20,411 bases of DNA from a virus: the IMG/VR virus record IMGVR_UViG_3300001516_000207, positions 1 to 20,411 of that record, one strand, 5' to 3'. Of the stretch, positions 1,801 to 20,411 are shown one piece after another. Below the pieces are notes generated by a model, which was not told the origin of the DNA, ran no database searches, and was given only the letters and a program-made list of their open reading frames with translations. The translations under genes and the position numbers were made by a program. Within the stretch, counting starts at the first letter, position 1, and each line of letters opens with the position of its first letter.

Positions 1801-4800
1801 TTAGTCTCTAACGCCAGTAACTGACCAGGTAAAATTACCATCGGTTCTACTACCTGTTGTTATATCATATATATAAACTGTAAAACTCTCTGGGTTAGCT
1901 TCATCTACAAAATCATAGATGGCGGTCTTGCCTGCTGTTCCACTGTAGTTTACAGTAATTTCATTAAGATCCACATATTTATATAGTGTACCATTAGTTG
2001 GGTCTGTGCTATCTACGTACACTTTTACTCCAGTATCTTTTTCTAAAGTAGTGATAGTATGAGAGCCAGATTCTGTTTGTTCTGACATTGATAATAAAAA
2101 CTTAACATTATCTATTTCAACTATATCATTTGTCGGAACTGATGTAAATTTAGTATAAATTTTAACATATCTAAAGTCGGAAGCACTTGAGGTACTAGAA
2201 GCTGCTCCTGAGTAGTTCCAGCCAGTAACATCATTCAATGCTTGGTTATAAATAGCTAAACTATTAGTCCAATAAATATGATTTTCTTTAGTAACTGTAG
2301 TAGTGGTATTATCTCTATAGTTTGCCGCAATTGTTACTGTAATATTAGAAGAAGATAACTCAACTCCAATATCCCAAGAATGGTAATATTCACATTCATC
2401 AGTACCAGCTTTAGCTACAATATAATATTGGTATCCTGCAGATACTTGATCCGCAGGACTATTCCAACTTCTAGTAGTGAAATGTTGTTCCCAAGTCTCG
2501 GTGTTATTTATTGGTCCAAATGCTGGGAAACTATCTCCTTTGTAGATATCAGTAACTTGAATTTTATCTTCTACTACCCAACTGCCACCACCAGCTATAC
2601 AGTCTGTAGAATTAGTTGCCACTGCTCCAGAACAGTATGCCTCATTTACTGGCTTGTCAGGGTCTAAAGAACTATTTATTTGTTGATGTAGTACAAAGTT
2701 TGCGGGTTCATTAACATTAGAAGTTGAAGTTAATGGAGTACTTTCATTACCTGCTGAGTCAATAGAAACAATAAAATACTTATATGTGCCACCAATTGAC
2801 TCAAAACGAGTAACGAAAGTAGCAGGTCCCAGTAAGTCTTGTTCTATTGTATCTATTAGAGTACAAGTTGTGACATCTCTATCACATCTTGAGATTCTAT
2901 AATTTACTATAGGCATCTGCCTAGTAGTTAAACTAGGGTCAGACCAATCTAACTTAACATAGTTATCAATGACTTCTACAGATAATCCACTAGGGGCCGA
3001 AGGTTGGTCTATTGTAACATCAACAAATCCTTTATCTCCGTAGTTTCCTGCAGTATCTATAGGTGCAACCCAGAATGTTCTAGTAGCCTCTCCAGTAAAT
3101 GGGCCCCAACTACAACGTACTGATTTAGTAGTTCCGGATTTCAATTCTGGGGAGAATGACGCATCTGTTGCTAAAACTCCAGACAGGTTCCGTCCATTAC
3201 TCCACGTATCCCCATATCGTATTTCATATGTATCAATAGGTAAAGTAACCGCAGAAGTAGAGGTCCAGGATAAAAGAACGTTTTCAGTATTATAAGTATT
3301 TGTTACTGTAGGTTTACCAGGTTTTATTACGTCTATAGGTATACTGACTGGGGTACCTTCATTTCCTGCTGAATCTACAGAAGTAACCCAAAAAGTCCTA
3401 GGAGTAGTTGGTCCCCAGGTAACTTTAGTTGTCCAATCTGTAACTTTACTAATTGCAATATCTGTAGAACTAGCCCAAACATCTCCATATCTCAGTACAT
3501 AATCTACAATAGGTAAATCTGAAGAAGGAGTAGTCCAATTAAGAACTACATTAGCGCCTGTTATACTAGAGGTAAGAATAGTTGGATTTGGTCTAGCTAT
3601 CACACATGTAAAACTACTAGGTACCCCGTAATTATCAGAATAGTCCTTAGCAGCAATCCAAAAAGTTTTAGAGTCTACACCTACTGATCCATATATACCT
3701 GGACCCCAAGTAACTGGGTAAGTTATAGACGGAGTAGTAACTACCTTAGGATCAATACCTGCAGCCCAACTCGCTCCTTCTCTAACTTCATACTCTTTAA
3801 TACCTTGAGGGGCTGTACCTGGAGCAGTCCAAGTAATATTCACATCCCCTATATTAAATACGTGAATTATAGAACTAACTGAACTAGGTTCAGATACTAC
3901 ATAACTTATAGGAGTAGCATCTACAGAGTAATTACCCGTAGTGTCAATCGCTTTAAGTAAATAAGTATGATTACCTGTACCAACAGCTCCTACTTGATGA
4001 TGAATAGAGGTAATATTAGTGGCAACTACTGTTGCTGTACCCCATACTAATCCCTTGCGGACTTCATAATAAGCCCAGTCTATATCTGGATTAGACTTCC
4101 AATGTATTGTCAGTCCTTTAGCTACTCCCCAAGTAGTAGATAACCCACCTACATTCATTGGAGGTAACGTCTTACCATATAATACTTTAGAGGCTGTAGT
4201 CCAAAGAGACTTTTTATTGTTTACTAAACTTACAGTTTTGACTCTTACTTCATATTCTAATCCTGCAGCAAGCCAAGTATGTCCTGCTGTAGTACAATCT
4301 GTACTAGTTCCATAAGATGTCCACGAGTGGCCTGCTGCAACACAGGTTGTCTGGCTTGTAAGTGTAGGATCTGCAAAACAGTCTCCACTGTCACATCTAG
4401 CTGGTAAAGAGTAAGTATTATCAATAGTAATATTACTCTCAGTATTATGCTCTATTGTATTCCAGGTTTCCCCTTTTATTCTCCATTGTACCTCATAATG
4501 ACTTAAATAGTCATAAGAAGATCTTAGCCAATTATAAGTAGCAGCCTCACAAGAGGCTTTATCAGTATAGGTATTATCTTCTAAACAAAAGTAATTTTGT
4601 CCAGGAGCTACCCAACTAACATGCATCCTATTTCTAATGGTGTTTACATTGCTATATAATTCTTCGGTTATATTAATATCAGTTATAGATGGTGGAGCAG
4701 TTCCCCAAGGCATCCTTTCACTTATACTTGTTACCTCTATTTCATCACCAAGTTCTATAGCATTAAACTTAGATTCATTATATTCTAGTCCAGTAACAGT

Positions 4801-7539
4801 AAACTTATTCAGGTCATCTTCTGTAATAGCTACTACTCTATATAATTGAGACTCTACTTGCCCTATTCTTTCCAAAGTCCACACTTGCATAGGTAATGGG
4901 TCAAAGTCTAAGTCCGATTCTAAATGTATAATATTGGTAGAATATGTAGAGGCACCTGGATCAATAGTAACATCTTTAGTTACTATATAAGATGCTTCAT
5001 CCCAATTTTTACCTGCTCCCATACAAGCAACTTTAGAAGTATATGATGCATTAGTACTTCCATCTTGGTTAGTACACCTATCATCTGGCTTTATGATACT
5101 GAAATTCATATCATCTGCGCCGTTTAGTTCTACTGGGGCATCTAAACAAATAGTACCTTTATCAGTAACAGTCCATGTTCTGGCGTCCCACTCCCAATAA
5201 TCTCCTGTAGTGTGTCCTATTACATTTTGAAATTCATATTTAATACCATAGTTATAAGACTGCTCTCCTAGCTCCATGCGTATGTTAACTCCGGAAGCAA
5301 AGTCTAATGAACCATTAATAAATATATTGAAAGTATCGTGCATGGAAGAAGTAAGAAAAGTAGCCCCAAATTCCAGGTCTATCCCCGTACCGTGGGCGTT
5401 TTCAATATATGTAAGCCCAAGTCCTGCAGCAGCAGTTAAAACAGCAGAAAAATCTTTTGCTGTTTTATACTCCCATATATCTCCCTCATATAATACTGGA
5501 GATTCAAATATTAAATTTGTCTCACGCACTACTGCTGTAGAGGAGTCTTTATTTTTAAACCTATAAGTATCCCCATCATACGAACTTAAGGTAATCCATT
5601 CCTCAGCACTTCCTGCACAAGTAAAATTAACTGCGTCCCAACTTCCAGAGTTATTTGTACAACATAACTCAGGTGTAGATGAAGACCCATCACTACAACT
5701 CTCATATTCTTCTGTTAAAGCTTCATCTCTAAACCATGAAGTATTAGTAACAAATATATTATGAGTTTTTGGTACGTGAGGAGTTAAATATACTACAAAT
5801 CTGTACACATCAGCAGGATCTCCAGTATAGCTACCTGTACGAATAAAATCGTTTAATCCTGTTCCTGTATAAGTAGTACCTAATTCACAATCAGTTTGAG
5901 AAGTATAACTAGTATCAGAGCATACATTAGGCAAAATACGCCCACCATAGCGAACACCTGCTCTATGCTTATCAGACACCTTCATTAAATCACCTGGTCG
6001 TATTGGAGCACCTTCAAATCCAGTAGCAAAACTAATACCTTCAGTTTCTAATCGTTCAGTATATAGAATCCATTTACCTACCCTCTGCGCTTGTCCTCTA
6101 GAAGTACACCCAAAAGCTATAACGCTTTTTTCTACCATTCCGTATCTTTGTATGCCTTCTCTATCCTCTACGTACTCTACAGTCTGTTTATACCCATTAG
6201 CTGGGTCATTCCAAGTAACTAATACTACATTGTGTCTAGCTTTTTTGGAAGAGCCTGTATATGTGAAGTCTCCTCCAAGCACATTAGACTCAGTAAAATG
6301 AAATACTGGTAATTTAGGAGCATCTTGAATTGCAGATACTAATCCTTGGTCCCAATAAACTAGCCCTCTAAATATAGAAGCTAAGTCATTTAAAACCTTA
6401 TAAGCTTCATTTGCCCCTTGTAGGTATAAGTTACAAGCAAAACGTGGTTCTACCTTTGTAGTAGTCCCATCCATAAATCCAGAGGGTACTCCTACGTACT
6501 TACCATTATCATCTACTGCGTCACAATATCTAGCAATTTGGTATAGTGCCCATTTATCAATATTATAATCATCTAAATATTGTCCAAGGCCGTATCTATC
6601 ATTAGTAAGAAGATCGTAATAGACCCAGGCAGGATTACATGTCCACTTTACGTCAAAAGTACCATCCCAGATACTAGAATACAGGAAATCTCCAACTTGA
6701 GTTGAATTTGGGTCATAGGGAGTATAGTTCGAAGGAACTTTTACTTTCACCCCCTTAATTTCATAACCTCGTCTTGGTACGTGGCCAAATTGTTTAGCAT
6801 CTAGTCTTATACCCATTAAAGCACTATTAGGATAAGAAAATTTGTTATCTATAATCTCGGTATGAGTGTGCCAAAATATATCGTTTCTTATAACTTGAGA
6901 ATCTGAGTCCTCTGTTAATCTTTTAATTCTTATAGCAACTTGAGAAAATCCAGCAGTTTTCCAACTAGCAGGTATATCAAATCTATGGCTCCAGTCATAT
7001 CTTGCAGTAGTTTTTCCTTCTTTAGTAAAAGTACCTTGAGTTACCCAACTACCACTATTATCTACTTGAAAAGATATCTCATATTCAACTTTAGTTCCGT
7101 GGATATCTCCTGTATCTTCTTGATGACTAAAAGTATTGGTGTACAGAGATACACGTATAGCATCCATATTACTATTAGTAAGAGTACGTATAACTCCTCC
7201 AGGAGTAGCCCCGCTATTTTCTATTTTAATACCAACTGCTTTTTGAGTACCCACAGATTCAAATCCGGGAATATACGCCTGTCCTTGGGCTCCTTGTCTC
7301 GCATCCCAAACAACATCCTCAAAGTTATAGTTACCTGCAGAGTCTTGTAGAGGAGTATCATCAAAGAATATAGACTTAGCCCCATCAACTAAGCCTTCAA
7401 TTTCTCCCTCGGATACTAAATCTATTACTTGAGCAGATCCAGTAGAGTGTAGAGTGTTAGGATCCTCAGTAGGAGCAGAGCCACCACCTCCGCCTTTACC
7501 ACCTCCAGCTCCTCTAATAGGTTTCTTTATATATTCCAT
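1801..7539 (-). CDS. J: J-like tail tip / central fibre protein (host specificity)
   Basis: The product has 1912 residues; lambda J has about 1130. It forms the trimeric central hub at the tail end and normally carries receptor binding. The N-terminus (GAGGGKGGGGG, then EDPNTLHSTGSAQVIDLVSEGEIEGLV) and the region with FACNLYLQG, EAYKVLNDLASIFRG and GAPIRPGDLMKV are diagnostic of the family. From about residue 945 there is an array of about seven fibronectin type III-like beta domains (EYEVR, TFWV..D.AGN, ITWTAP words), ending near residue 1610. A beta-rich C-terminal domain follows, possibly a jelly-roll tip. Short Cys-rich modules interrupt it at several places, accounting for part of the extra length. 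The ATG shares one base with the stop of the upstream I-like gene (TAATG), and AGGA lies about nine bases upstream. The gene is intact. J identity is very secure; receptor and host are unknown. Confidence 0.93.
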   Translation of the reverse strand: MEYIKKPIRGAGGGKGGGGGSAPTEDPNTLHSTGSAQVIDLVSEGEIEGLVDGAKSIFFDDTPLQDSAGNYNFEDVVWDARQGAQGQAYIPGFESVGTQKAVGIKIENSGATPGGVIRTLTNSNMDAIRVSLYTNTFSHQEDTGDIHGTKVEYEISFQVDNSGSWVTQGTFTKEGKTTARYDWSHRFDIPASWKTAGFSQVAIRIKRLTEDSDSQVIRNDIFWHTHTEIIDNKFSYPNSALMGIRLDAKQFGHVPRRGYEIKGVKVKVPSNYTPYDPNSTQVGDFLYSSIWDGTFDVKWTCNPAWVYYDLLTNDRYGLGQYLDDYNIDKWALYQIARYCDAVDDNGKYVGVPSGFMDGTTTKVEPRFACNLYLQGANEAYKVLNDLASIFRGLVYWDQGLVSAIQDAPKLPVFHFTESNVLGGDFTYTGSSKKARHNVVLVTWNDPANGYKQTVEYVEDREGIQRYGMVEKSVIAFGCTSRGQAQRVGKWILYTERLETEGISFATGFEGAPIRPGDLMKVSDKHRAGVRYGGRILPNVCSDTSYTSQTDCELGTTYTGTGLNDFIRTGSYTGDPADVYRFVVYLTPHVPKTHNIFVTNTSWFRDEALTEEYESCSDGSSSTPELCCTNNSGSWDAVNFTCAGSAEEWITLSSYDGDTYRFKNKDSSTAVVRETNLIFESPVLYEGDIWEYKTAKDFSAVLTAAAGLGLTYIENAHGTGIDLEFGATFLTSSMHDTFNIFINGSLDFASGVNIRMELGEQSYNYGIKYEFQNVIGHTTGDYWEWDARTWTVTDKGTICLDAPVELNGADDMNFSIIKPDDRCTNQDGSTNASYTSKVACMGAGKNWDEASYIVTKDVTIDPGASTYSTNIIHLESDLDFDPLPMQVWTLERIGQVESQLYRVVAITEDDLNKFTVTGLEYNESKFNAIELGDEIEVTSISERMPWGTAPPSITDINITEELYSNVNTIRNRMHVSWVAPGQNYFCLEDNTYTDKASCEAATYNWLRSSYDYLSHYEVQWRIKGETWNTIEHNTESNITIDNTYSLPARCDSGDCFADPTLTSQTTCVAAGHSWTSYGTSTDCTTAGHTWLAAGLEYEVRVKTVSLVNNKKSLWTTASKVLYGKTLPPMNVGGLSTTWGVAKGLTIHWKSNPDIDWAYYEVRKGLVWGTATVVATNITSIHHQVGAVGTGNHTYLLKAIDTTGNYSVDATPISYVVSEPSSVSSIIHVFNIGDVNITWTAPGTAPQGIKEYEVREGASWAAGIDPKVVTTPSITYPVTWGPGIYGSVGVDSKTFWIAAKDYSDNYGVPSSFTCVIARPNPTILTSSITGANVVLNWTTPSSDLPIVDYVLRYGDVWASSTDIAISKVTDWTTKVTWGPTTPRTFWVTSVDSAGNEGTPVSIPIDVIKPGKPTVTNTYNTENVLLSWTSTSAVTLPIDTYEIRYGDTWSNGRNLSGVLATDASFSPELKSGTTKSVRCSWGPFTGEATRTFWVAPIDTAGNYGDKGFVDVTIDQPSAPSGLSVEVIDNYVKLDWSDPSLTTRQMPIVNYRISRCDRDVTTCTLIDTIEQDLLGPATFVTRFESIGGTYKYFIVSIDSAGNESTPLTSTSNVNEPANFVLHQQINSSLDPDKPVNEAYCSGAVATNSTDCIAGGGSWVVEDKIQVTDIYKGDSFPAFGPINNTETWEQHFTTRSWNSPADQVSAGYQYYIVAKAGTDECEYYHSWDIGVELSSSNITVTIAANYRDNTTTTVTKENHIYWTNSLAIYNQALNDVTGWNYSGAASSTSSASDFRYVKIYTKFTSVPTNDIVEIDNVKFLLSMSEQTESGSHTITTLEKDTGVKVYVDSTDPTNGTLYKYVDLNEITVNYSGTAGKTAIYDFVDEANPESFTVYIYDITTGSRTDGNFTWSVTGVRD
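2578..5922 (-). repeat. Seven dispersed cysteine-rich mini-modules inside the J-like protein
   Basis: Short segments with the shared pattern C-x(n)-T-[SDN]-x-x-x-C-x(3-5)-G-x-x-W occur at 5869-5922 (residues 540-557, final Trp replaced by Tyr), 5617-5697 (615-641, a longer variant with four Cys), 5002-5076 (822-846), 4528-4587 (985-1004), 4273-4395 (1049-1089, two copies in tandem) and 2578-2634 (1636-1654). Words such as YTSQTDC, YTSKVAC, YTDKASC, LTSQTTC and TNSTDC recur. Several sit between strands of otherwise ordinary tip or FnIII-like domains, so they look like loop insertions. Each has one or two Cys pairs that could form a disulphide. Nucleotide identity between copies is low. I know no named family for them. 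Confidence 0.75.
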
Positions 7540-8132
7540 TAATCTTTATCCTGTGCTACTATATACGCATTAATTACTGACCCACCTACTCTTACAAGCC
7601 CGTAGGCTATTGGTATTGGGACACCTTGTCTTTGTGTGTTTACTGGCCCATCAAAGAAGTAATTCTCTGGAGCCTCTACAGCTGCTTTGGGGTCTGGAGC
7701 CAAGTATTCAGCAATGCCTGAAAATACCATTGACATTCCAAAATTTATCAGCAGTTTACCTGCTATTTGTGTAGCAGTCATATTAGCAATACCACCTGAT
7801 ACGTCGGTCATACCACCCATCTGAACACCCGCATATATCATAACAGCTCCAAGAATTATTTTAGTTGCCTTACTTTTAGATCCTAATATAGCCGGTATTA
7901 TTTTTATTTTTTCACTGCCTACAGGATTATGTAGTTCATCTAATCCTCTATCTATTTCATCTACTAGTACTCGATACCCAATACTTCTATCTTCAGAAGT
8001 AACTACAAAATCCTTAAATCCAGGTAAAACAGCACATAAAGCACGAACTGCTTCTGCTGCACTATGAACCTCTAAAGAGAAACTTTTGCCAAACTTCTCT
8101 CTTAATTCTCCATATAGTACAACTTCACTCAT
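7539..8132 (-). CDS. I: Lambda I-like tail assembly protein, second copy
   Basis: The product has 197 residues. Residues 1 to about 85 form a beta-grasp (ubiquitin-like) domain opening with VVLYGELREKFGKSFSLEV and including EAVRALCAVLPGF, the hallmark of the phage I/TAPR-like family. A hydrophobic segment (about 90-112, KIILGAVMIYAGVQMGG) and a Gly/Ala/Met-rich region follow. The end carries FFDGPVNTQRQGVPIPIAYG and VGGSVINAYI. In lambda, I acts in assembling the tail tip before J is added, though its exact job is poorly known. Its ATG overlaps the upstream I-like stop by four bases (ATGA) and follows a strong AGAGGA. It is a clear paralogue of the gene just upstream, and is closer to the textbook I sequence (LCAVLPGF). 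Confidence 0.85.
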   Translation of the reverse strand: MSEVVLYGELREKFGKSFSLEVHSAAEAVRALCAVLPGFKDFVVTSEDRSIGYRVLVDEIDRGLDELHNPVGSEKIKIIPAILGSKSKATKIILGAVMIYAGVQMGGMTDVSGGIANMTATQIAGKLLINFGMSMVFSGIAEYLAPDPKAAVEAPENYFFDGPVNTQRQGVPIPIAYGLVRVGGSVINAYIVAQDKD

Positions 8133-8734
8133 TGGTCTTCCTCTGCCCTTATTTGTGCATTAATTACTGCTCCACCTACCATTAGTTGCCCGTAAGCAAT
8201 AGGAACGGGTGCTCCTTGCCTTGTTGTATTTACTGGGCCATCAAAAAAATAGTTCTTAGATTTTGCTACGCTAGTAGGACTACCAGGGTCTCCAGCTAAA
8301 ATTTGTGCAATACCGCCCGTTACCATTGAAGTACCAATATTAAATGCAACAGCTGCAGCATATTGAGCACCAGTTGCAGTACCTGCCATTAATTCACCCA
8401 TAGAAGCCATACCTCCAGGTACCATAACTGCTACATATATTAATACAATTCCTATTATAATAGTAGCCCATTTAGACTTTGCTCCAGATACTACTGGTAT
8501 TATCTTTAAAACTTTCCTTTTATCAAAAGTTTTAAGCATAATATCATCTATAGCCAATTCTTGTTTATCATATACTAGGACATATTGGTTACCTTCTATA
8601 CTAAGAGTATCTTGAAATGTCTTAAAGTTAGCTATTAAGGCAGATATAACTTCTCTAGCAGAATTTACATCGAAAGTAAATTCTGCACCATACTTATCTT
8701 TTAGTTCTCCGTATAGTTTAACATCCGTTAACAT
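8129..8734 (-). CDS. I: Lambda I-like tail assembly protein, first copy
   Basis: The product has 201 residues with the same layout as its downstream neighbour: beta-grasp N-domain (VKLYGELKDKYGAEFTFDV), hydrophobic helix (about 90-110, TIIIGIVLIYVAVMVPGG), Ala/Gly-rich middle, and C-terminal FFDGPVNTTRQGAPVPIAYG. It differs mainly in the loop after the first helix, where the usual CxxxPGF becomes a shorter FKTFQ segment, so the pair has diverged. The start overlaps the K-like stop by seven bases (ATGTTAA) with only a weak AAGG upstream, so it is probably translated by coupling. Paired I-like genes may have divided the role, for example as two different subunits at the tip. Family membership is secure; the function of the extra copy is unknown. 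Confidence 0.83.
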   Translation of the reverse strand: MLTDVKLYGELKDKYGAEFTFDVNSAREVISALIANFKTFQDTLSIEGNQYVLVYDKQELAIDDIMLKTFDKRKVLKIIPVVSGAKSKWATIIIGIVLIYVAVMVPGGMASMGELMAGTATGAQYAAAVAFNIGTSMVTGGIAQILAGDPGSPTSVAKSKNYFFDGPVNTTRQGAPVPIAYGQLMVGGAVINAQIRAEEDQ

Positions 8735-9442: not shown

Positions 9443-10267
9443 TTAAAATCCTAAATTAGACCCAGGGAACCCTCCATAAGGTAACTCGTTACTCTCTCCA
9501 AACCGCAGTTCACAACTCTTAACTCTTTTACCACAGTGGTCATCTGCTTCATTAACTACTGCAATATCATCAATATTATATCTTTTAGTAGAATCATCTA
9601 CCCAAGTGCAACCTTGTCCACTTTTATACTTCCAAGTACATGTATTAGAAATCATTGGCCTACGAGGTAGCTTAGTACCATGCACATCAAATGCAGTAGA
9701 CAACTCAAATTCTATCATTACTCTGTTTTCTGTCTTTTTTCTATCTATGTAGAATATATCATCAGGAAAATGAGCATTTACATCCATGCTAGTATTATTG
9801 TACCAAATTCCACTAGAAATAGGTATACAGCCTAAAAAGCTAGTAATGCCCTCTACAGGAGTTAAGTTAATGGCATCAAAACAAACAGAATCTAAGTATT
9901 TTGCGAAAGTTCTTTTTCTAGTTAATTTTGCCCATACTAAATCTTCATGGTCTAGTATAAGTGTTGTCAGTACTCCAGTTAAATTAGCTACTTTTAAAGA
10001 AGGGGTAGGTAATGCCCCTTTTCCACTAAATTCAAATCCTGATACTTCTATAGGGTAAGGATAATAGATTTTACCTTGCCACATTATTTCTTGACTTTTG
10101 TATGTGCCATAATTTGCAGTACCTGCATGAAAACGTAATACTTCAACACCGCTAACAGGGGTTACCCAATTAGGTATAGTTGTAAGATCAAGCTCAAAAA
10201 GCTCTATTATAACTCCGGGTTCTAACCCATATATGGCCTCTACAATGGCCTTATACCCGCTACTCAC
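9443..10267 (-). CDS. L: L-like minor tail protein with four-cysteine metal/Fe-S site
   Basis: The product has 274 residues, slightly longer than lambda L (232). L connects the tail tube end to the tip. N-terminal words VIELFELDLT, EIMWQGKIYYPYPIEVSGFEFSG and PTPSLKVAN are typical of the family. The C-terminal domain holds four cysteines, Cys210, Cys220, Cys245 and Cys252 (TCTWKYKSGQGCTW ... HCGKRVKSCELRFG), matching the four-Cys arrangement that binds an iron-sulphur cluster in lambda L. It ends ELPYGGFPGSNLGF, also characteristic. A central stretch (about residues 130-190, including FLGCIPISSGIWYNN) is longer than usual and accounts for the extra length. The start is a GTG that overlaps the M-like TGA by four bases (GTGA), with only a weak Shine-Dalgarno, so translation is likely coupled. 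Confidence 0.88.
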   Translation of the reverse strand: MSSGYKAIVEAIYGLEPGVIIELFELDLTTIPNWVTPVSGVEVLRFHAGTANYGTYKSQEIMWQGKIYYPYPIEVSGFEFSGKGALPTPSLKVANLTGVLTTLILDHEDLVWAKLTRKRTFAKYLDSVCFDAINLTPVEGITSFLGCIPISSGIWYNNTSMDVNAHFPDDIFYIDRKKTENRVMIEFELSTAFDVHGTKLPRRPMISNTCTWKYKSGQGCTWVDDSTKRYNIDDIAVVNEADDHCGKRVKSCELRFGESNELPYGGFPGSNLGF

Positions 10268-10616: not shown

Positions 10617-13600
10617 TTAATACTCACTTAAAATTCCACCAGGTCTTTGCTCATCAATTAGCTGTTCCTGGATCTTCTGTCCAATCATTAAACCAAGCGC
10701 TTTAGACTGTTCTTGAGTTAACTCATTACCTGAGTCAGAATCAACATCTATAGAAGCACCACCATTCGTTACATTAACATTTACACTGACATTATTGCTA
10801 ACTTCAGTTTTACCCATTGACCCTTGAGGGATAGGCTTAATAGCTGCCATATCTGGTCCAGGAGTCATAGTATCACTAATTCCACCTGCAGCATACTTAG
10901 TATACTCTGGGAACCCGCCTCTAGCAAATCTAGCGAATCCACCTTTAGCTAACTCATCAGCATTGATGGCTTCTATTATAGGTCTGTATCGTGCTGTAGA
11001 AGATGCATTAATAACATATTCACCATTAGATAGCCAAGCAGGAATTGCATCTGCTGTTGGACCACCTGCACCGTGTATCGCACCGCCATTAGAGAATCTT
11101 GCGTATCCTTGCTTAGCTGCTCCGCCTGCTGCAAATTCTGCGTACCCACCTTTAGCTAAAGCTGTGGTGGTGAAACCACTGAATAAACTTGATAACCAGT
11201 CACCGCTACCACTAAACAGATCCATAAGCCAGCTTCCACCAGTTTTTAGCATACCCATAAGTCCGCCGTCTCCTCCCTCACCATTAAATATACTTCCTAT
11301 ACCGTCAAATAACTTAGTACCAAAATTGGATATACTCTGCCATATTCCTCCGGTACCAGTAGTTTCTTTATCAAATGTATCAGATACAGACTTCTTTACA
11401 CTAGTGCCAAAATCATCTACAACCTTACTAGATTCAGATTTTCCGTCTCCGGCTAAAGAAGAGAATAAATCCCTTCCTAAACTATCTATATAGTCTACTG
11501 CCATTGCTGTTGCTGAGTTCATAAAGGCTACACTGACACTAGTTGCAAACGTTGAAAGCATACTCTTAACGTCAAACTTACCCGTTTTAAATAAACTTCC
11601 TAGTTCCATCTCAAAAGAAGCACCAAAGCTTTGTACTAAAGCTTGAGCACTTATACCTGTTGAGCCCTCAAATGATTTAACAGCGTCAGAGTCATTGAAT
11701 AACTTCCAGTTCTTCTGCTCTTCATTTAATTCACCTTTCTGGAAGTTAAATGAATTTTCAAAGTACTCAAGTTGCTTTTTAAGGGTCTCAGCTTGTTCTT
11801 CAGTCATCTTACTAATCTTTGTCAAAAGATCTTCTTGTACTACACTCTTTGTTTTAACGGTTGCAAGTTTGTGCTGAGCATATTCTCTCAGACCTGTGGT
11901 AGGATTGACACTTCCAGATCCTCCCAAACCTCTTAGTACACTAGACTCAAAAGGATTAACATGAGCTAATTCTGTATCTCCATTACGACCTTTACCAGAA
12001 AGAGTTTCAAACATTCTTTCCATATCATAGTCTGCCTTCTTAGGAATGGAAGCATCAGTTAGAGCCTCCCACATTTCTTGAGTATAGTATTCTTTTAACC
12101 ACTCAGGAACCAGATCTTTAATGCTTGTTCCCATAGGGGATACTGCCATTCTTTCTCTAGTACGTGCAATAAGTTCCCTACCTATCTGGTCTTCACGGTA
12201 AGTAAACGCATGGTTCATTTTTCTATCTTCTTTAGTTCCACCTTTATCATTTTTATCTGTTGCTAAATGCTTGAACCAAGATATATCTATTTTATCCCCA
12301 AATACCTCTTTCCAGCCAAGTTGGGCCGAAGGGAGAAAATGACCAGTTTCATGCGCCATAGTACGCACCATATCACCTTCTATACTTGAAAAATATGTAG
12401 CTATCTTAGCCCAGTTACCATCTTCATCCCAACCCTGTTCTGCAACTCCACGGATATTACCCCCTGCCAGTCGCCCTCTTAGTGCGAATATAGGGTCTTG
12501 TCCTGGATTTCCTAGAAAGAAGAAAGGAGCTTTATTAGCCATAGCATCTGGATCTAGCCCTTCGAAAGATAGCTTAAGTCTATCATTAAGATCATTCTTA
12601 CCTCTAGATTTAGAAGAGAAACCATATTTATGTAACCCCATTGGATCTTTAGGTACGACATCGTCCTCCCACCCCATAATATTCCAATCCATGCCTCTAA
12701 CGAATCTTTCCGCGTTACCTACTGGACCTCCATTGGCAAATGATCCATGGCTGTGTATCGATTTCCACATATCCAATCTAGCAGCCGACCGTCTCTGAGC
12801 CATATCCCATGGTTGAAGTCCTGGTACAAATACGCCGTTCCTAGAGTCTACTTGTTGTCTGAGGGTTTTGTACTCTTCCCTAGTCATATTCCCTCTATGG
12901 GCGATAGTAATTCTACCGTTTGGTAATGGGGGAATACCTGAAGACCTTCCACCCCCACCACTCGGCATTATACCACGTCCAACGCCACCTGGCATTAATC
13001 GTTCACCGAATGGTCCCCAACCAGGTGTTATATTAATAGCATTCGCTTGTTTACCAAGGAAGAAGTCAGATATTAGTCCGCCACCTGCAAATCCTTGCAT
13101 AACACTTCTAGGCTCATCCACGAATGGGTTACCTACTAGTATGTTTATAAGCTCAGCTATGCCAAGTCCTCCCGCAAGAGGTAAACCAACTAAAGATCCA
13201 GCTGCTTTTTTAGCAAATCCTTTAGTCCAAATTCTCCTTTCCTGCGCTAAACCTTTGGCAAACTGTACTCCTTTGGCACTTTTTGCTACAATACCTTGAT
13301 GTGATACAGGGTTTGGAACCATAAGGGACTTACCTCTATATGGGTCCTTTCCTGCCATTAGCTTATCGTATATTATTAGTGCTGCTTTCTTTTCGTCAGA
13401 TACACTTTTAAACCCTTTGGCATATTTAGCGGTCCCATCAGGTTTTTTGTCATATTGATTTAGTATTGATACTGGCTTATTTCTATTAGTGGCAGTACCG
13501 ACTTCATGCATATTAAGGTTTGGAGGAGTACCCGCGTAAGGGTTGCCTGTACTGAAAGGCCCAAATCTATGAGCTCCTGCACTTCCACCTTTCCACTTCA

Positions 13601-16600
13601 TACCCTCTTGCCAATTACCGTATGGCTTCCCTACATTACGAACTCTTTGTCCTTCTTTGTTTACCCACCAACTTGCCCCTTTAAAAGTTTTAAAGTTTGG
13701 ACCAGCTTTGTGCATCTTTCCACTAGTATTTCGCATAACGTCATCATTCTTTATGACATTATTTATATTCATTTTATCTGCTAGTCTTTGAACAGCATCA
13801 TTTACGTTTGTTTTTTGAAGAGATTTCATCCAATCAAATGAACCACCATCTGCAAATTTAGCAATGCCTCCCTCTGCAAATTTAGCATATTTACTCTTAT
13901 CTGATCTTCCACCAGCAGCTAGATTCAGAGTATCGTCATTGATGGATTTTACTAATGGTCCATACTTTTTAGTAGAGGCTGCATTAATAACATACTCTCC
14001 ATTAGATAACCAGGCAGGGATCTTATCCTCTTTAGGGCCCCCTGGGCCTGAAATACGACCACCTGCTGCAAATTTATTATGAGGTAGGTCGCCTGCTTTA
14101 GGAGAGAACCACTCACTTGGAGAGAACCACTCACTTGGAGTAGTGATTGTGTCATAAGTCTTAGACGCACTAGTAAACTCAGTATTAATAGTGTCTAGTG
14201 TAATATTTAATTTATCTAATGTAGGAGACATCTCTGTAGAGATGAAACTCATGAATTCTCCCATAGGGATTCCTAATTCGAATTCTATAACAGATACTAA
14301 ATCGAATACTAATTCTCTAGATAAATCATCAATTGCGCGAACAGAGTAGCCTACCTGGTCTTTTAATAAGGTACTTATAGTAAGCACATGCCCGGCTACT
14401 TCTCTCAATACTCTAGTTACTTGAGGGTCTACAGCATCAAAAATACCTCCACCTAAATAACTATCTGGTCTGGTTCCTTCATAGAATCCAGGTATCTTAC
14501 CACCTTCATTAATAATATTTAAGAAAGCTCTATTTCTTTGAGCGGCGTCTGCATTAACAACAAACTCTCCATTAGATAGCCATGCGGCTACTGAATCATC
14601 TGTAGGGCCGCCTAATCCTGACACATGCCCACCATGTGCATAAAATTCTGCGCCTCTATTGTTATCATCTCTGTCTTGCCAAGTAGGATTATGGTTAAGA
14701 TCAGATGCACTAGGCAGAGCGTTATACTTGGGCTTTTCTAAGGGTATAGATGGTATAACGACTGTTGGTGCCAGTAACTTCTCTGTATAATTATCTACAG
14801 CTGCTTTGTAATTATCGAATTGTGCTGCGAATCTATCGAACCTATCTAAAATATATGCTATCTTATCTGGGGATACCTGTCCAGACATCTTATCCGCCAT
14901 CATTGCTCTAGTATTAGCAAGCATACCCGAATTTACTATATTAGGGTCATTGTATTGACCCATTTCACTAGTCAACATACTATGGGCCACAGTCTTCATA
15001 GGATTGAAGCCCATAAAGCCACTACCCATTTCTTCGTTTACAGCACCATGTAAGAATTGTTTAAGTTCTGCAAGGTTATTATTGTACCGTTCATGTTCCC
15101 TAAATTTAGTGTCTTCAGCACTTAGGTTGCTTAACTTATCTGTATAATTAGTTATTACTTCTGTAGCTGTTTTCCCTTTATTACCCAAGCTTATAACTCT
15201 ATCCATTGAGTAACCTAGAGACTCTATGAATCGCTCTATATTAGCCTGAGCCTCCATCTGTTCTTGGTCGAATTCAGCTTGGAACATCGCAAGATCTAAA
15301 TATTCTTCTTCCGCTGCTCTAGCTGCTGATACTTTCGCTGCTTTATCAGCTGCTACTGCTGCAGCACGCGCCTCATTTGACATAAGATTGTTTGTTGGCT
15401 CACCTAACCAGCTTGGAGTAGTATTTAGACGGTGCTCCATCGCATCCCACTGAGCATTGAAATTATCTTGTGCTTTAAAAATTGATTCTGCTTGTACATC
15501 TAGAGCTACTGCTAAGGCGCGATCCTCATTTGACATAAGGTTGTCTGCAACACCTAACCAGCTTGGAGTATTATCTAGAGATTTATTTAATCTCATAGTA
15601 TCCATAATATCAACTAGCTTTTCTAAAGTATCAGCAATTCTATCGCCTGTAGTTTCGGCCGCTAATATAGCATTTGTTAAAAATTCAGACTTAGTTGTTG
15701 GCACGAATTGGTCAAATACTTTCTTATTCTTATTTTTTGCGTAAAAATCCTCTACACCATTAATAGTAGTGCCTGTCTGATTAGATATGTCAACCCTTCT
15801 ATCTCTGATAGCTTTTAGAGTCGCAGAAATATCTAATAAATAGTTATTTCCAATGTCTTGTTTCTTTAGTGCTTGTACTGCTTTTTCTTCTGGAGTAATG
15901 TAAGTAGAGCCTAACATTAACTTGGCTGAAGCCACTTTCATTTTCTCAGCTGCAGAGTCTATAAGTGTATCTCCAGCAGCTCGCCATTGCTTAGCCGCAA
16001 AATTTTCAAATCCGCCCGCACCGAAGGCTCCTTCGCCTTCCTTAATATTTTCTGCCATCATATCTACAGCAGTATTAATAGACCCTATCATTACATTGGC
16101 AGCTGAATCGATAGCACTAGGCATAGCCTCTTGCATTTCTTTAATTCTATAGTATAGCTCATCATCTAAAGATGCTTCGCCTATTCTCTTTTTTGCTTCG
16201 TGAGCAGCTTTTAGCCCCTCTACGTATTCCTCTAAAACTTCTACCTTTTCTTTCTCCATCTCTAGGATTTCAGAATCAATATCTCTAATTAGATTCTGTC
16301 TTTCCCAAGATGTTAATTCTAGATTTTCTAGTTTATCTCTAATTTTTAGTACATTATGTTCATGCTGTAAAGCCTTAATATCAAACTTCTTCTTAATATT
16401 AGATAATCTATTTTCTCTAGCTTTAATATTATTAACATGAAGACTACTAGTAAGTTTAGCATTATTTAGTTCTTCTTGAGCAACTAAGTGCCTATTTATA
16501 CTCTCAAGAGAAGAAGATTCTTTAAGGGTATTTAGTGCTGCTAATGCCTGTAGACTTATAAGTTCCTCTCTAGTAGTTAGCATGAAAGCCATATGAGCTT

Positions 16601-19600
16601 TCTCTAATTTATACCATTTAGTTAAGTCTGTAGTACTACCCACAGCATTCTGTAGAGCAAGTGTATGCCTCTCAGTTAGCTCAGTAGTTGCCCTCATAGA
16701 ATCAAGTCTTTCTTTTGCAAGGTCTGATTCCCTAGCACTAATAATTGCTAGAGATTCGGTAGTACTAGCATTGGCATCATGCACACCTGATAGTTCTTTT
16801 TGTATATCTAATAGAGCACTAGCTCTATCTACCATTTTATTGTATAGGTCTAATTTATGATCTAAGTAAGAAGAATCCCTCTCTATCTTTGCAATTTTAA
16901 CAATATTAGTAAGTCGCTCCCCTACTATCTTATTAGCAGATGTGTAAGCTTCAAGTAACTTTACTTTATCAGCTTCAGGAGATTTCAAATCTTTCTGATA
17001 CTTAGTATGTATATCTAACCAGTCCTTAATTGCAGAATTAATGGATGTTTGTTTAGTAGACACAAAGTTTAGATGTGCTACTTGAGACTTATTTATGCTA
17101 CCTATAGACTCTAGCGCCGTTACCATATCAGTAATCAGCCCAAGATTCTTTTCGTATATGCTATACTGATACTTAATTTCTGTAGTAATACCTTGATGTA
17201 TTATTTGAGCTTCAGATAACCTATTAAGCTCTAAGTCTGCGATTTTCTTTTGTTCTTGAGCAATAGCTTCTTGATTTTCTTTTGTACGTTTACTCAATCT
17301 TAGAGTTTTAATTGTTAGACGGAACTGAGCTTGCTTACTATCTAGTATTTTACTTTCTATATTTAAAGATTTGATTAAATCTGTAGATGTTCCAGTACCC
17401 TTTAACCTTGTCATAGCAGAAGCCATGAGATCTATTTCACCCTGTAAGTATCTAAATTGTCTTTGGGCATTTTTTACAAAGTCATCATAAAGTACAATAG
17501 CCTCTCTAATTGTATCCTTTGCTTCCGTAAATGATAGTTTACTATCTACAGTTTCATGTATTCTTGATAGGAACCCTTCTTTTTCATCTTTAAGAAATCT
17601 ACCAGATTCTAGTAATAGTGTCTCCAGCGCTGATTGTAGCTCTATGCTCAGACCCTCAATTTGGCTTGCTATAGCACTTTTCCACATACCCTGCTTAATC
17701 ATATCAGGAGTAATTTGTTTACCTACAGCATCTTTTACTAATAGTTCTAAAGCATCACTTGATAACGACTCAAGACTGGCGATCCCACTCATAGTATTGC
17801 CAGACTGCATATTGGCAAACTGCTCTGCTCTTTGAGCAGCTGCAGCATCGGCAATTTTAGTATGAATACTTGCAAGGATAGCTTTAGATACCTTATTCCA
17901 TTCTTCCTCAGGTATATGTTTAAAGGCAGTTCTCTTAAGTTGAGGTAATAATGAATCTTTTAGCTGGCTAGCTACTCCCTCTTGTTGCCTCTGTACATTA
18001 GCTTTTGACAGTACTTCATGAATTTCCTGATTTATTGCTTTAGTCTTAACAAAAGATTCATTAGGGGCAAATATACCTTCCGAAAACGACGGCAACTGTT
18101 TCTGTAACTCTGTAACTCGTTCTAAATCTTTTCCTAATAACCCTATAATATCCTTACCAGTACTAGGAGAAACTTTTACTAGATCAATCTCAAAACTAAG
18201 ATTTCCTAAAGTATCTTTAAATTCTTTTACTGCTTCTACGGCTCTATCTAATGTGCCTTCAAAGGCCATTATTGATTGTTCATTATAGAATGTATCCTCA
18301 AAAGTTTTTTTCAACCCTTTTGACTGATCTACTAAAGTATCAAACTTAGTAGATGTTAGCAATCCTTTTGCAAACTCAGACTGAGCGTCTCCTAAGCCTT
18401 GAAATGCTAGAGCTAAGTCTTTAATGTTCGATTCTAAATTTCTAGAGCTTGCAGAGACCTTTTTTGTCTCTTCTTGAAATCTGGCCAGATCCTTAGTTAG
18501 TCTACCTTTAGAATCAAAAAGTGTTATACTATCTATATCTATACTCAATGCTGACGCAATTGCTTTTAAGTGCCCAGAAGTTTTTACCGTATCAATAAAC
18601 TTTTTAGTTTGCTCATCCATTGACTCTGACATACTATCTGACCAGAATACCATCTCTGAGAAGACTTCGCCTACTTTATCACCGGCTGTCATTTTATCAA
18701 TTGCCTGACCCCACTTAACAGACATAGTAGTTAATGAGTTAGAAAAACTCTCTAAACTACTAGCTTCTTGACCAGCTGCTTTACCTATTCCCTCTAAACT
18801 ATTAGTGAATAGATTTAACTGATTAGAGTACCCTATCCATTTTTCTTGTTGAGCGTCTAATTCTTCCCCAAAAGCATTAGCACCTGAAATAGCCTTACTA
18901 ATAACGTCAGTAGTGAAACCGAATGCTTTAGATATACCTTTTACAGCTGCTTCAAGCATGGTGTATATAGCTACAGCTTGCATAGCTTTCATACCCCCTG
19001 ACATTATACCACGACCAAGAGAAGCAATTTGTGAGCCGAACCTAATATTCGCTTTGCCCATAGACTTTAGGGCTTTATGATACAAGTTCATTTTTTTGCC
19101 TTCAGCCTTATATAGCTTATCCATCTCTTTGCCATACCTTTTAGCTTGGTAACTTGCTTCTTGCCACCCTGCAGAAGTTCCTTCATGTTGAAATGCTTGT
19201 TGAACTTCAAATTTACCTGCTGCTCGTAAACCCGCTTTTTTGGCATTAAAAGCCATACGGGATCTAACTTTGCCTTCCATATTTCTGGCCCAGCTTGATG
19301 ATGATCCAGTTACAGCACTTTCCATCTCTGCTAACTGCTTAGCATATGCTTTCGGATCTACCGTTCTAAGCATTTGCATCCTTAGATCTTTTAGTCCTCG
19401 TCTGGTTACATCCATCTCAATGCCCATGCCTTCATCAATAAGGGTGCCGACTCTTCTGCCGGTAGTTTCCATATCCCCTATTAATCCATCGACATTACTC
19501 ATTAGGGAAGAACTCATTGCCTTCTGCACATCCCTAGTACCCGCAAATGGATCATTAGCTAGGTCAAGTTTAGACATGTTGACCTTATCTGCAGAATCTA

Positions 19601-20411
19601 CCAACATATTTGCAACATCTCCGCCAGCTACATCCGTTAGGTGGCGCATCGCTTGGGCATTATTCACGCCCCCTTCACTTAATAGATTTCTGTACGCATT
19701 AGTAATATTATCAAACTTATTTACTATGAGACCTTCTGCGTTTGTTACATTAACACCCATATCCTCTATAGTAGAGTAGAATGCAGCACCTGTTCCCATG
19801 GTATTCATTTGTTTAGCAAAGCTTTGGAATGTAGTTCCACTATTTTTAGCTGATACTGCCATAGCATGAGAATCTGCTGCAAACCTACTTGCAGCATCAG
19901 AATACTTATTAGTAAATTTTCCTACCTGGGGTATCATATTCTTTAGTAAAAATATAGCTAACCCAGAAAAAGCTGCGATTACTGCTGTAGCATTCTCAGA
20001 AAAGAATTTTACTACATCTTTAATACTAGCTATTCCAAATATTATATCAAAGTCTAGCGCGAAATTACCCGCTTTAAGAGCTGTATCTGTTAAAGCAGCT
20101 GATATTGCTGATAAAGAGTTAGCTTTACCTTCCATCTGCTTGCCTAATAAGCCAAACTTATTTTCAGCTTGAGTTATAACTTCGTTTAATACAGCTTGTT
20201 GCTTCTCATAAGTAGTTAGTTCTTTAACATTTTTACCTATACTACCGTCTAAATTTCTTATTGTTTTAGCATATTTTTTAGAGGCAGTTTCAAGACGTAA
20301 TATAATTCCTAATTCGTCTAATAATTCTGGCTCTGCTTTTGTTACACCTTTGGTAATTCTGTCGAAAGCATCACCCAAGTCTCGCCCTAGGGCTAGTCCT
20401 GCATTCTTGGC
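10617..20411 (-). CDS. H: Giant tape measure protein (H-like), N-terminus outside window
   Basis: The frame is open to the right edge; 3264 codons are visible and the true start lies beyond it. The TTG at 20378 is not a real start, since LALGRDLGDAFDRITKG, typical of tape measure N-domains (LGxDLxDAxDRxxxG), reads across it. The protein sets tail length and is ejected with the DNA. In order: N-terminal helical domain with a hydrophobic segment (about 19930-19995); helical and coiled-coil rods (roughly 18500-15900); a low-complexity region with NTPSWLG and PSEWFSP duplications; three GG...AWLSNGE modules (14510-14633, 13938-14063, 10962-11087); many FAxGG motifs; a Trp/Gly-rich globular stretch (13700-13350); a hydrophobic helix (13131-13200); a predicted HExxH zincin domain (about 12050-12700); and a C-terminal helical domain usual for the tip end. 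Lambda H is 853 residues, so this is unusually large. The gene appears intact. Confidence 0.93.
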   Translation of the reverse strand, partial: AKNAGLALGRDLGDAFDRITKGVTKAEPELLDELGIILRLETASKKYAKTIRNLDGSIGKNVKELTTYEKQQAVLNEVITQAENKFGLLGKQMEGKANSLSAISAALTDTALKAGNFALDFDIIFGIASIKDVVKFFSENATAVIAAFSGLAIFLLKNMIPQVGKFTNKYSDAASRFAADSHAMAVSAKNSGTTFQSFAKQMNTMGTGAAFYSTIEDMGVNVTNAEGLIVNKFDNITNAYRNLLSEGGVNNAQAMRHLTDVAGGDVANMLVDSADKVNMSKLDLANDPFAGTRDVQKAMSSSLMSNVDGLIGDMETTGRRVGTLIDEGMGIEMDVTRRGLKDLRMQMLRTVDPKAYAKQLAEMESAVTGSSSSWARNMEGKVRSRMAFNAKKAGLRAAGKFEVQQAFQHEGTSAGWQEASYQAKRYGKEMDKLYKAEGKKMNLYHKALKSMGKANIRFGSQIASLGRGIMSGGMKAMQAVAIYTMLEAAVKGISKAFGFTTDVISKAISGANAFGEELDAQQEKWIGYSNQLNLFTNSLEGIGKAAGQEASSLESFSNSLTTMSVKWGQAIDKMTAGDKVGEVFSEMVFWSDSMSESMDEQTKKFIDTVKTSGHLKAIASALSIDIDSITLFDSKGRLTKDLARFQEETKKVSASSRNLESNIKDLALAFQGLGDAQSEFAKGLLTSTKFDTLVDQSKGLKKTFEDTFYNEQSIMAFEGTLDRAVEAVKEFKDTLGNLSFEIDLVKVSPSTGKDIIGLLGKDLERVTELQKQLPSFSEGIFAPNESFVKTKAINQEIHEVLSKANVQRQQEGVASQLKDSLLPQLKRTAFKHIPEEEWNKVSKAILASIHTKIADAAAAQRAEQFANMQSGNTMSGIASLESLSSDALELLVKDAVGKQITPDMIKQGMWKSAIASQIEGLSIELQSALETLLLESGRFLKDEKEGFLSRIHETVDSKLSFTEAKDTIREAIVLYDDFVKNAQRQFRYLQGEIDLMASAMTRLKGTGTSTDLIKSLNIESKILDSKQAQFRLTIKTLRLSKRTKENQEAIAQEQKKIADLELNRLSEAQIIHQGITTEIKYQYSIYEKNLGLITDMVTALESIGSINKSQVAHLNFVSTKQTSINSAIKDWLDIHTKYQKDLKSPEADKVKLLEAYTSANKIVGERLTNIVKIAKIERDSSYLDHKLDLYNKMVDRASALLDIQKELSGVHDANASTTESLAIISARESDLAKERLDSMRATTELTERHTLALQNAVGSTTDLTKWYKLEKAHMAFMLTTREELISLQALAALNTLKESSSLESINRHLVAQEELNNAKLTSSLHVNNIKARENRLSNIKKKFDIKALQHEHNVLKIRDKLENLELTSWERQNLIRDIDSEILEMEKEKVEVLEEYVEGLKAAHEAKKRIGEASLDDELYYRIKEMQEAMPSAIDSAANVMIGSINTAVDMMAENIKEGEGAFGAGGFENFAAKQWRAAGDTLIDSAAEKMKVASAKLMLGSTYITPEEKAVQALKKQDIGNNYLLDISATLKAIRDRRVDISNQTGTTINGVEDFYAKNKNKKVFDQFVPTTKSEFLTNAILAAETTGDRIADTLEKLVDIMDTMRLNKSLDNTPSWLGVADNLMSNEDRALAVALDVQAESIFKAQDNFNAQWDAMEHRLNTTPSWLGEPTNNLMSNEARAAAVAADKAAKVSAARAAEEEYLDLAMFQAEFDQEQMEAQANIERFIESLGYSMDRVISLGNKGKTATEVITNYTDKLSNLSAEDTKFREHERYNNNLAELKQFLHGAVNEEMGSGFMGFNPMKTVAHSMLTSEMGQYNDPNIVNSGMLANTRAMMADKMSGQVSPDKIAYILDRFDRFAAQFDNYKAAVDNYTEKLLAPTVVIPSIPLEKPKYNALPSASDLNHNPTWQDRDDNNRGAEFYAHGGHVSGLGGPTDDSVAAWLSNGEFVVNADAAQRNRAFLNIINEGGKIPGFYEGTRPDSYLGGGIFDAVDPQVTRVLREVAGHVLTISTLLKDQVGYSVRAIDDLSRELVFDLVSVIEFELGIPMGEFMSFISTEMSPTLDKLNITLDTINTEFTSASKTYDTITTPSEWFSPSEWFSPKAGDLPHNKFAAGGRISGPGGPKEDKIPAWLSNGEYVINAASTKKYGPLVKSINDDTLNLAAGGRSDKSKYAKFAEGGIAKFADGGSFDWMKSLQKTNVNDAVQRLADKMNINNVIKNDDVMRNTSGKMHKAGPNFKTFKGASWWVNKEGQRVRNVGKPYGNWQEGMKWKGGSAGAHRFGPFSTGNPYAGTPPNLNMHEVGTATNRNKPVSILNQYDKKPDGTAKYAKGFKSVSDEKKAALIIYDKLMAGKDPYRGKSLMVPNPVSHQGIVAKSAKGVQFAKGLAQERRIWTKGFAKKAAGSLVGLPLAGGLGIAELINILVGNPFVDEPRSVMQGFAGGGLISDFFLGKQANAINITPGWGPFGERLMPGGVGRGIMPSGGGGRSSGIPPLPNGRITIAHRGNMTREEYKTLRQQVDSRNGVFVPGLQPWDMAQRRSAARLDMWKSIHSHGSFANGGPVGNAERFVRGMDWNIMGWEDDVVPKDPMGLHKYGFSSKSRGKNDLNDRLKLSFEGLDPDAMANKAPFFFLGNPGQDPIFALRGRLAGGNIRGVAEQGWDEDGNWAKIATYFSSIEGDMVRTMAHETGHFLPSAQLGWKEVFGDKIDISWFKHLATDKNDKGGTKEDRKMNHAFTYREDQIGRELIARTRERMAVSPMGTSIKDLVPEWLKEYYTQEMWEALTDASIPKKADYDMERMFETLSGKGRNGDTELAHVNPFESSVLRGLGGSGSVNPTTGLREYAQHKLATVKTKSVVQEDLLTKISKMTEEQAETLKKQLEYFENSFNFQKGELNEEQKNWKLFNDSDAVKSFEGSTGISAQALVQSFGASFEMELGSLFKTGKFDVKSMLSTFATSVSVAFMNSATAMAVDYIDSLGRDLFSSLAGDGKSESSKVVDDFGTSVKKSVSDTFDKETTGTGGIWQSISNFGTKLFDGIGSIFNGEGGDGGLMGMLKTGGSWLMDLFSGSGDWLSSLFSGFTTTALAKGGYAEFAAGGAAKQGYARFSNGGAIHGAGGPTADAIPAWLSNGEYVINASSTARYRPIIEAINADELAKGGFARFARGGFPEYTKYAAGGISDTMTPGPDMAAIKPIPQGSMGKTEVSNNVSVNVNVTNGGASIDVDSDSGNELTQEQSKALGLMIGQKIQEQLIDEQRPGGILSEY
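10962..11087 (-). repeat. AWLSNGE module 3 of the tape measure
   Basis: This copy is close to the C-terminus, after the tip-end helical domain. It reads GGAIHGAGGPTADAIPAWL, then SNGEYVINASSTARYRP, nearly matching module 2 at key positions. FAxGG-type motifs flank it on both sides (FSNGG before it, FARGG after it). Confidence 0.9.
12050..12700 (-). other. Predicted zinc metalloprotease-like (HExxH) domain within the tape measure
   Basis: The codons at 12353-12339 encode HETGH within TMAHETGHFLP, the form of a zincin active site on a helix. Numbering from the right-edge codon, the ligands would be His2687 and His2691 with catalytic Glu2688. A downstream helix, YREDQIGRELIART, offers Glu2740 or Glu2746 (ExxA) as a third, gluzincin-type ligand 49-55 residues later. 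The preceding part holds FFFLGNPGQDPIFALRGRL and ATYFSSIEGDMVRT. The surrounding sequence is globular and unlike the coiled-coil rods. Which zincin family it belongs to is unknown; activity is inference from the motif. Confidence 0.6.
13938..14063 (-). repeat. AWLSNGE module 2 of the tape measure
   Basis: This is the central copy of a module of about 42 residues with the order GG-x-I-S/H-G-x-GGP-x-x-D-x-(I/V)-x-AWLSNGE-(Y/F)-V-(I/V)-NA-x-(S/A)-T. The other two copies are at 14510-14633 and 10962-11087. They are well conserved at protein level. The module is common in large tape measures; its exact role is not known. Confidence 0.9.
14101..14140 (-). repeat. 18-bp tandem repeat, two full copies plus four bases
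   Basis: The plus-strand unit ggagagaaccactcactt occurs at 14101-14118 and again without a gap at 14119-14136, followed by ggag. It is perfect and a multiple of three, so the tape measure reads PSEWFSPSEWFSP there without a frame change. It is probably a recent slippage duplication. Confidence 0.95.
14510..14633 (-). repeat. AWLSNGE module 1 of the tape measure
   Basis: This is the copy nearest the N-terminus. It reads GGHVSGLGGPTDDS...AAWLSNGEFVVNADAAQRNR. It differs from the other two copies by having F-V-V-N-A-D and no Tyr in the second half, so it is the most divergent of the three. Confidence 0.88.
15345..15425 (-). repeat. Internal tape measure duplication, C-terminal copy
   Basis: This copy reads NTTPSWLG, then EPTNNLMSNEARA and AAVAAD. 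It carries one or two extra residues relative to the copy at 15498-15572. A segment duplication of about 150 bases (repeat plus spacer) in the tape measure would explain the pair. Confidence 0.88.
15498..15572 (-). repeat. Internal tape measure duplication, N-terminal copy (NTPSWLG...NLMSNE)
   Basis: This 25-residue segment reads NTPSWLGVADNLMSNEDRA and continues LAVALD. It matches 15345-15425 at the protein level with a one-residue length difference; the plus-strand word cacctaaccagcttggagta is identical in both copies. The two copies are separated by about 72 bases. Confidence 0.88.

Follow-up and report, generated by a model that had tools for sequence, protein, structure and literature searches.

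How can the same short, cysteine-rich segment come to interrupt a single phage protein at several unrelated places? This question is raised by a lambda-J-like tail tip protein of 1912 aa, encoded at 1801..7539 (-) of a 20,411-nucleotide stretch of viral DNA (IMG/VR record IMGVR_UViG_3300001516_000207; the whole stretch is referred to below as the window). An earlier reading of the sequence alone (the sequence-only reading) had pointed out seven Cys...Cys...Trp units at six positions of this protein, placed them in loops of ordinary domains, and proposed either the spread of a small independently folding loop, perhaps held by a disulphide, or a DNA sequence that duplicates itself in frame within coding DNA. 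Here we argue that the units are copies of one promiscuous, probably disulphide-locked mini-domain, which is tolerated in surface loops and has been spread by recombination and tandem duplication, an interpretation to which we assign a probability of about 0.78.

The seven units of the tail tip protein

The minus strand of the window carries a lambda-type tail gene cluster, comprising a probable tape measure ORF, a minor tail protein M-like product, L, a protein of the JAB-NlpC/P60 type, a pair of adjacent I-like proteins, J, and a fibre that bears an S74 chaperone. The tip protein was assigned by family models that match its conserved core, namely phrog_31 (E 1.2e-227, 760 bits), FNIII-A_GpJ and Phage-tail_3 of Pfam (PF24801, PF13550) and lambda_TipJ of NCBIfam (E 5.5e-124). 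The seven units at six positions were borne out, with the coordinates 2578 to 5922 exact, all on the minus strand. M1 (5869..5922, aa 540-557, CSDTSYTSQTDCELGTTY) directly follows the conserved GGR(I/V) motif that closes the J core and is a variant with Tyr in place of Trp and one residue less. M2 (5617..5697, aa 615-641, CSDGSSSTPELCCTNNSGSWDAVNFTC), the weakest member, is known from sequence and departs from the pattern in having CC and another Cys after the Trp. It is followed by M3 (5002..5076, aa 822-846, CTNQDGSTNASYTSKVACMGAGKNW) and by M4 (4528..4587, aa 985-1004, CLEDNTYTDKASCEAATYNW), which is devoid of the Gly. M4 occupies the B-C loop of an fn3 domain, whose E-F loop holds M5a (4321..4395, aa 1049-1073) and M5b (4273..4320, aa 1074-1089, TSYGTSTDCTTAGHTW), the two halves of one tandem 4-Cys double unit, while M6 (2578..2634, aa 1636-1654, CSGAVATNSTDCIAGGGSW) is located far downstream in the protein. 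For M4 and M5, the placement in loops of ordinary domains was therefore described correctly from the outset.

Segments this short might be chance cysteine-rich loops with no common origin, and two of them, M2 and M6, indeed stay within the noise of the profile described below. However, the pattern Cys-x6..17-Cys-x5..7-Trp starts nine times in J, whereas 2000 shuffles of the same protein gave 0.31 starts on average and never more than 4. Since our alignment A2 includes M5a of the window, the match of this alignment to the genome of the window is partly circular, and the independent test of membership was made with a "foreign" profile, for which 59 units were taken from other proteins and none from J. 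It scored M5a at 15.6, M1 at 14.9, M3 at 12.1, M4 at 10.2 and M5b at 7.6 bits, so that five of the seven units exceed every one of the decoys (4112 reversed ORFs, 4.4 bits at best); M6 received 1.5 bits and M2 was not listed. We accept M6 despite its low score, because the homologous site is filled with CDIGSGSYITEVSCENAGGNW in one relative (L168) and with a related unit in another (L166), and is empty in a third (L167). Together with the empty-site homologs and structural models presented below, these results already contradict chance for M1, M3, M4 and M5, and make it a most improbable account of the whole set.

Recurrence in unrelated protein families

The consensus of the unit is C[ST][DN]xxYTx4CxxAGxxW, about 20 residues. 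The sequence-only reading had proposed a search of phage and metagenomic proteins with a profile of the units; pattern searches revealed that the unit recurs in many unrelated proteins. The back-translated pattern [DN]xxYTx4CxxAGxxW was found in 97 IMG/VR stretches, nearly all in frame, whereas a control pattern with one base missing gave six matches and no in-frame unit; a stricter pattern identified 17 loci in bacterial genomes (17/17 in frame), from Gammaproteobacteria, Bacilli, Spirochaetes, Patescibacteria, Actinobacteria and others. After masking of the unit, the host proteins fell into 29 clusters with no mutual similarity at E 1e-5. Those host families that are annotated are mainly virion proteins: minor tail protein L, head completion or head-tail adaptor proteins, the neck protein Ad2 of the T4 gp13 type (in which the unit is a 22-mer, SVCSNVAYTTESTCTAAGETWT), phrog_10775, J, baseplate wedge and tail-tip fibre. 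Judging from the arrangement of its cysteines, M5 is a 4-Cys double unit of the same design as the one in phrog_10775, an unrelated tail protein. Among cultured phages (tblastn of the consensus against 50,697 records) only the Vibrio phages GR7B and GR11A carry the unit, in their baseplate-wedge protein. Within each family and site the unit is stable.

The number of copies per genome can be high, with 15 profile matches in a 124-kb phage record and 7 in a 99-kb record, some of them arranged as tandem arrays within proteins of 1200-2800 aa. In two such loci (L230 and L123) the module repeats were not detected as an array by TRF, therefore their tandem copies are not recent at the DNA level. As a side observation, the large virion-type proteins with Cys-unit arrays in the 124-kb record G004 (L225, L228) and in the 99-kb record G003 (L230) include homologous arrays whose copy content differs between the two phages, and one array of these phages lies near a GLEYA / PA14 domain. 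Four proteins from Bacilli (L116, L118, L124, L125) have one consensus unit near the C-terminus and an N-terminal hydrophobic segment that, by eye, resembles that of TasA-type secreted proteins.

No model or chain in Pfam, NCBIfam or PDB matched the unit above the cut-off, and searches of an open-access literature library gave no mention of it. A match to the TFIIIA zinc finger (E 0.018) fell below the cut-off for that family and was taken as chance.

Filled and empty sites

The sequence-only reading had named two outcomes by which the spread of a module could be judged: presence and absence in relatives with clean flanks, which would support it, and modules fixed at the same sites in all relatives, which would speak against it. 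The former was found in J and, beyond it, in the neck protein, phrog_10775 and baseplate-wedge families, and the latter is not the case, as empty sites exist. Relatives of J provide clean empty sites for M1 and M3-M6; in those about 50% identical, the M4 and M5 sites are empty and the M1 site is mostly empty. The M1 site is unoccupied in L145-L148, L152-L157 and others, and holds other units in L057, L149, L150 and L161. M3 has variant units in the J clade and none in the outgroups (L167, L169, L173, L182, L195, L198, L207); a nested 156-nt insert at this site is carried by L149, L153, L160 and L161 and is present or absent among close relatives. The M4 site is empty in module-free relatives, M5a and M5b together make one clean insertion of 49 aa relative to L146 and others, and one close relative (L004) has an extra consensus-like unit just after M2. 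An observation of a different kind concerns L057, whose J-like ORF (L057:599-1166) has a HINT / intein-like domain (PT-HINT, aa 50-174) immediately ahead of the J core, a possible intein in a tail gene.

In the neck protein, a segment of about 23 aa fills an inter-strand loop in L109, L070 and others, and is missing from the homologs of pelagiphages, a Methylophilales phage, a Stenotrophomonas phage and a cyanophage. Likewise, phrog_10775 is found without the double unit in the pelagiphages HTVC115P and HTVC103P, and the baseplate wedge without the unit in Rhizobium phage TM2_3B and Escherichia phage IME392.

Movement at the DNA level

The most direct record of movement comes from M1. A 78-nt in-frame insert occupies this site in L149, L150 and L161, and is absent from L160 (92% identical to L161) and others. 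Between L150 and L161 the insert is identical at 75 of 78 nt, while the flanks agree at only 42 of 60 (70%) and 46 of 60 (77%) positions, a comparison to be read with the reservation that all metagenomic contigs could contain local assembly errors. An exact-DNA scan located the insert in six records, which stem from several metagenomes and represent two J backgrounds between which it is 96-97% identical, and always at the M1 site of J. In L149 the left flank of the junction is identical to L150 and the right flank to L161; this mosaic could be a recombinant or an assembly chimera, which leaves the comparison of L150 with L161 unaffected, since that comparison is independent of L149. The insert is far more alike than its flanks, therefore a short patch of DNA carried the unit from one to another of two divergent J genes. 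The edges of the patch are near recombination junctions, and in at least this one case the unit was passed between different phages. Recent movement is seen only at this occupied allelic site, i.e. into the same site.

These data bear on the possibility that the unit was inherited vertically in J and the other families and repeatedly lost rather than gained, with no recent spread. Such a history would agree with the stability of units per family and site and with their ameliorated GC3. It is nevertheless unable to explain either the same unit in 29 non-homologous families or the extra unit of L004, and it is contradicted at M1 by the excess similarity of the insert over its flanks, unless both L150 and L161 were mis-assembled; we regard it as very unlikely.

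As a second alternative, the unit could be a small piece of mobile DNA that enters genes in frame, much as Rickettsia palindromic elements do, with the peptide as a tolerated by-product. These elements and in-frame MITE-like sequences resemble the unit in that they, too, are short in-frame inserts which many unrelated genes accept, and both the cleanness of the insertions and the insert DNA being younger than its flanks are in line with this view. In the Rickettsia elements, however, it is the DNA palindrome that is conserved, whereas in the unit conservation is at the amino acids, and its DNA is neither palindromic nor common to the sites. There is no target-site duplication, no strong hairpin (z from -1.9 to +0.7) and no repeat shared by the J units at the DNA level; the GC3 of the unit follows that of the host gene (r = 0.93), the best match of unit DNA between different families is 44/51 nt, and the 78-nt insert occurs at the M1 site of J only. 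The idea of a DNA sequence that duplicates itself is therefore not supported, its likelihood being as small as that of purely vertical descent, and the data are better explained by a protein module that recombines and descends than by self-mobile DNA. Of the two explanations offered at first, the spread of a small independently folding loop is the one that stands, with some 29 unrelated families, clean empty sites and a predicted mini-fold in its favour.

Predicted fold and cysteine pairing

Structures were predicted with AlphaFold2, with low to medium confidence for M5 and for the neck protein overall. In the neck protein of L109, the model shows a strand at 160-162 (including Cys162), a helix at 170-175 (with Cys173) and a strand at 180-181 (with Trp180); this block, with pLDDT of 84-89, is the most reliable portion of a mediocre model (mean 63), whose best matches in the PDB are T4 gp13 / neck structures. 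For J aa 940-1128 the model is a good fn3 domain. Its B-C loop contains M4, folded as strand 43-46, helix 55-60 and strand 65-68 (numbering of the model), and its E-F loop contains M5, a strand-helix-helix-strand of lower confidence in which M5b is the second helix. The models hence predict the same small beta-alpha-beta (strand-helix-strand) fold in two unrelated hosts. Segments that belong to different larger folds, which would have spoken against a common module, were not seen, and the unit is not itself a beta-sandwich (Ig-like / fn3) domain; in the model it is a strand-helix-strand insert within the fn3 loops.

The first cysteine was not demanded by the search pattern, yet it is present just upstream in 17 of 18 viral families, with 2.35 expected; a single family is without it. 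This excess lends statistical support to a disulphide between Cys1 and Cys2, which would probably lock the unit. A short strand bearing Cys1 and a short strand bearing the Trp would flank a short helix, which would start near the conserved Thr, carry Cys2 and end at the Gly, and the disulphide would presumably form after release from the cell. The predicted structures and the empty-site alignments suggest that both ends of the unit emerge side by side, and for this reason it could be plugged into a surface loop with the host fold left undisturbed. Its spread would then follow two routes, exchange of patches between related phages at an existing site, as shown at M1 of J, and tandem or nested duplication, as is evident from the arrays and double units. 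The presence of the unit in unrelated proteins suggests that it is also, rarely, captured at new sites. The unit may be retained because its insertion is tolerated and because rigid oxidised knobs may help the exterior of the particle.

Relation to known modules and possible roles

PSI, EGF and similar small Cys-rich domains of extracellular proteins have several disulphides each. They share with the unit the use of short Cys/Trp motifs as repeated extracellular modules, but the unit has one Cys pair and no profile match to Pfam or to a PDB chain. Accessory Ig-like, fn3, BACON and carbohydrate-binding domains are whole domains of roughly 80-150 residues, whereas the unit, of about 20 residues with one Cys pair, resides inside loops of other domains and has no Pfam or NCBIfam model. 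Like the unit, such accessory domains are scattered in several virion proteins, variable between close phages and sometimes tandem, as with the BACON tandem repeats in crAss-like phages (PMC6949934) and in 936 lactococcal phages, where carbohydrate-binding modules are extra modules scattered over several virion proteins (PMC6669499).

The last example also invites the suggestion that the unit is a dedicated receptor- or glycan-binding module by which the phage tip chooses its host. In these phages, carbohydrate-binding modules decorate several virion proteins (PMC6669499); moreover, J is the host-specificity protein in lambda, and M4 and M5 lie in exposed fn3 loops. However, neck, head-completion and baseplate-wedge proteins also contain the unit, as do diverse bacterial proteins, and none of these has the task of selecting a host. 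Receptor choice is less likely as a general role because the unit occurs in these virion proteins, and we consider it improbable, albeit less so than mobile DNA or vertical descent. That the units stabilise, shield or weakly bind as part of the exterior surface is, taken alone, a tentative suggestion. Somewhat more doubtful still is the broadest proposal, a universal micro-domain of about 20 residues that actively circulates on the surface of phages and bacteria as a cassette, spread by recombination and tandem expansion, with one conserved extracellular role, for example as a common weak ligand or a site of cross-linking or modification; if true, it would be among the smallest mobile protein modules known.

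According to the interpretation we prefer, of a mini-domain tolerated in surface loops, a protein unit far smaller than usual domains behaves as a module that plugs into neck, tail, baseplate and tip proteins alike, and the near-identical filled and empty alleles allow its gain and loss to be tested directly. Should the fold be confirmed, the unit would be a natural two-cysteine insertion cassette, accepted in many loops, and a new family with which many unnamed virion and bacterial surface proteins could be annotated.

Other features of the tail gene cluster

In the minor tail protein L (9443-10267, minus strand) an additional Cys...Cys...Trp stretch, CFDAINLTPVEGITSFLGCIPISSGIW, lies between conserved L segments. 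This stretch (Cys-x15-Cys...Trp) was suspected by eye to be a module, was not recognised by the profile, and is not claimed here. The very long ORF (10617-20411, minus strand), which exceeds 3200 aa and runs open to the edge of the window, is probably the tape measure, as judged from position and composition only, and includes a HETGH motif (MAHETGHF) that resembles those of zinc metalloproteases. Upstream of J there is a tandem I-like gene pair (7539-8132 and 8129-8734, minus strand), both members of which match phrog_32, the lambda tail assembly protein I.
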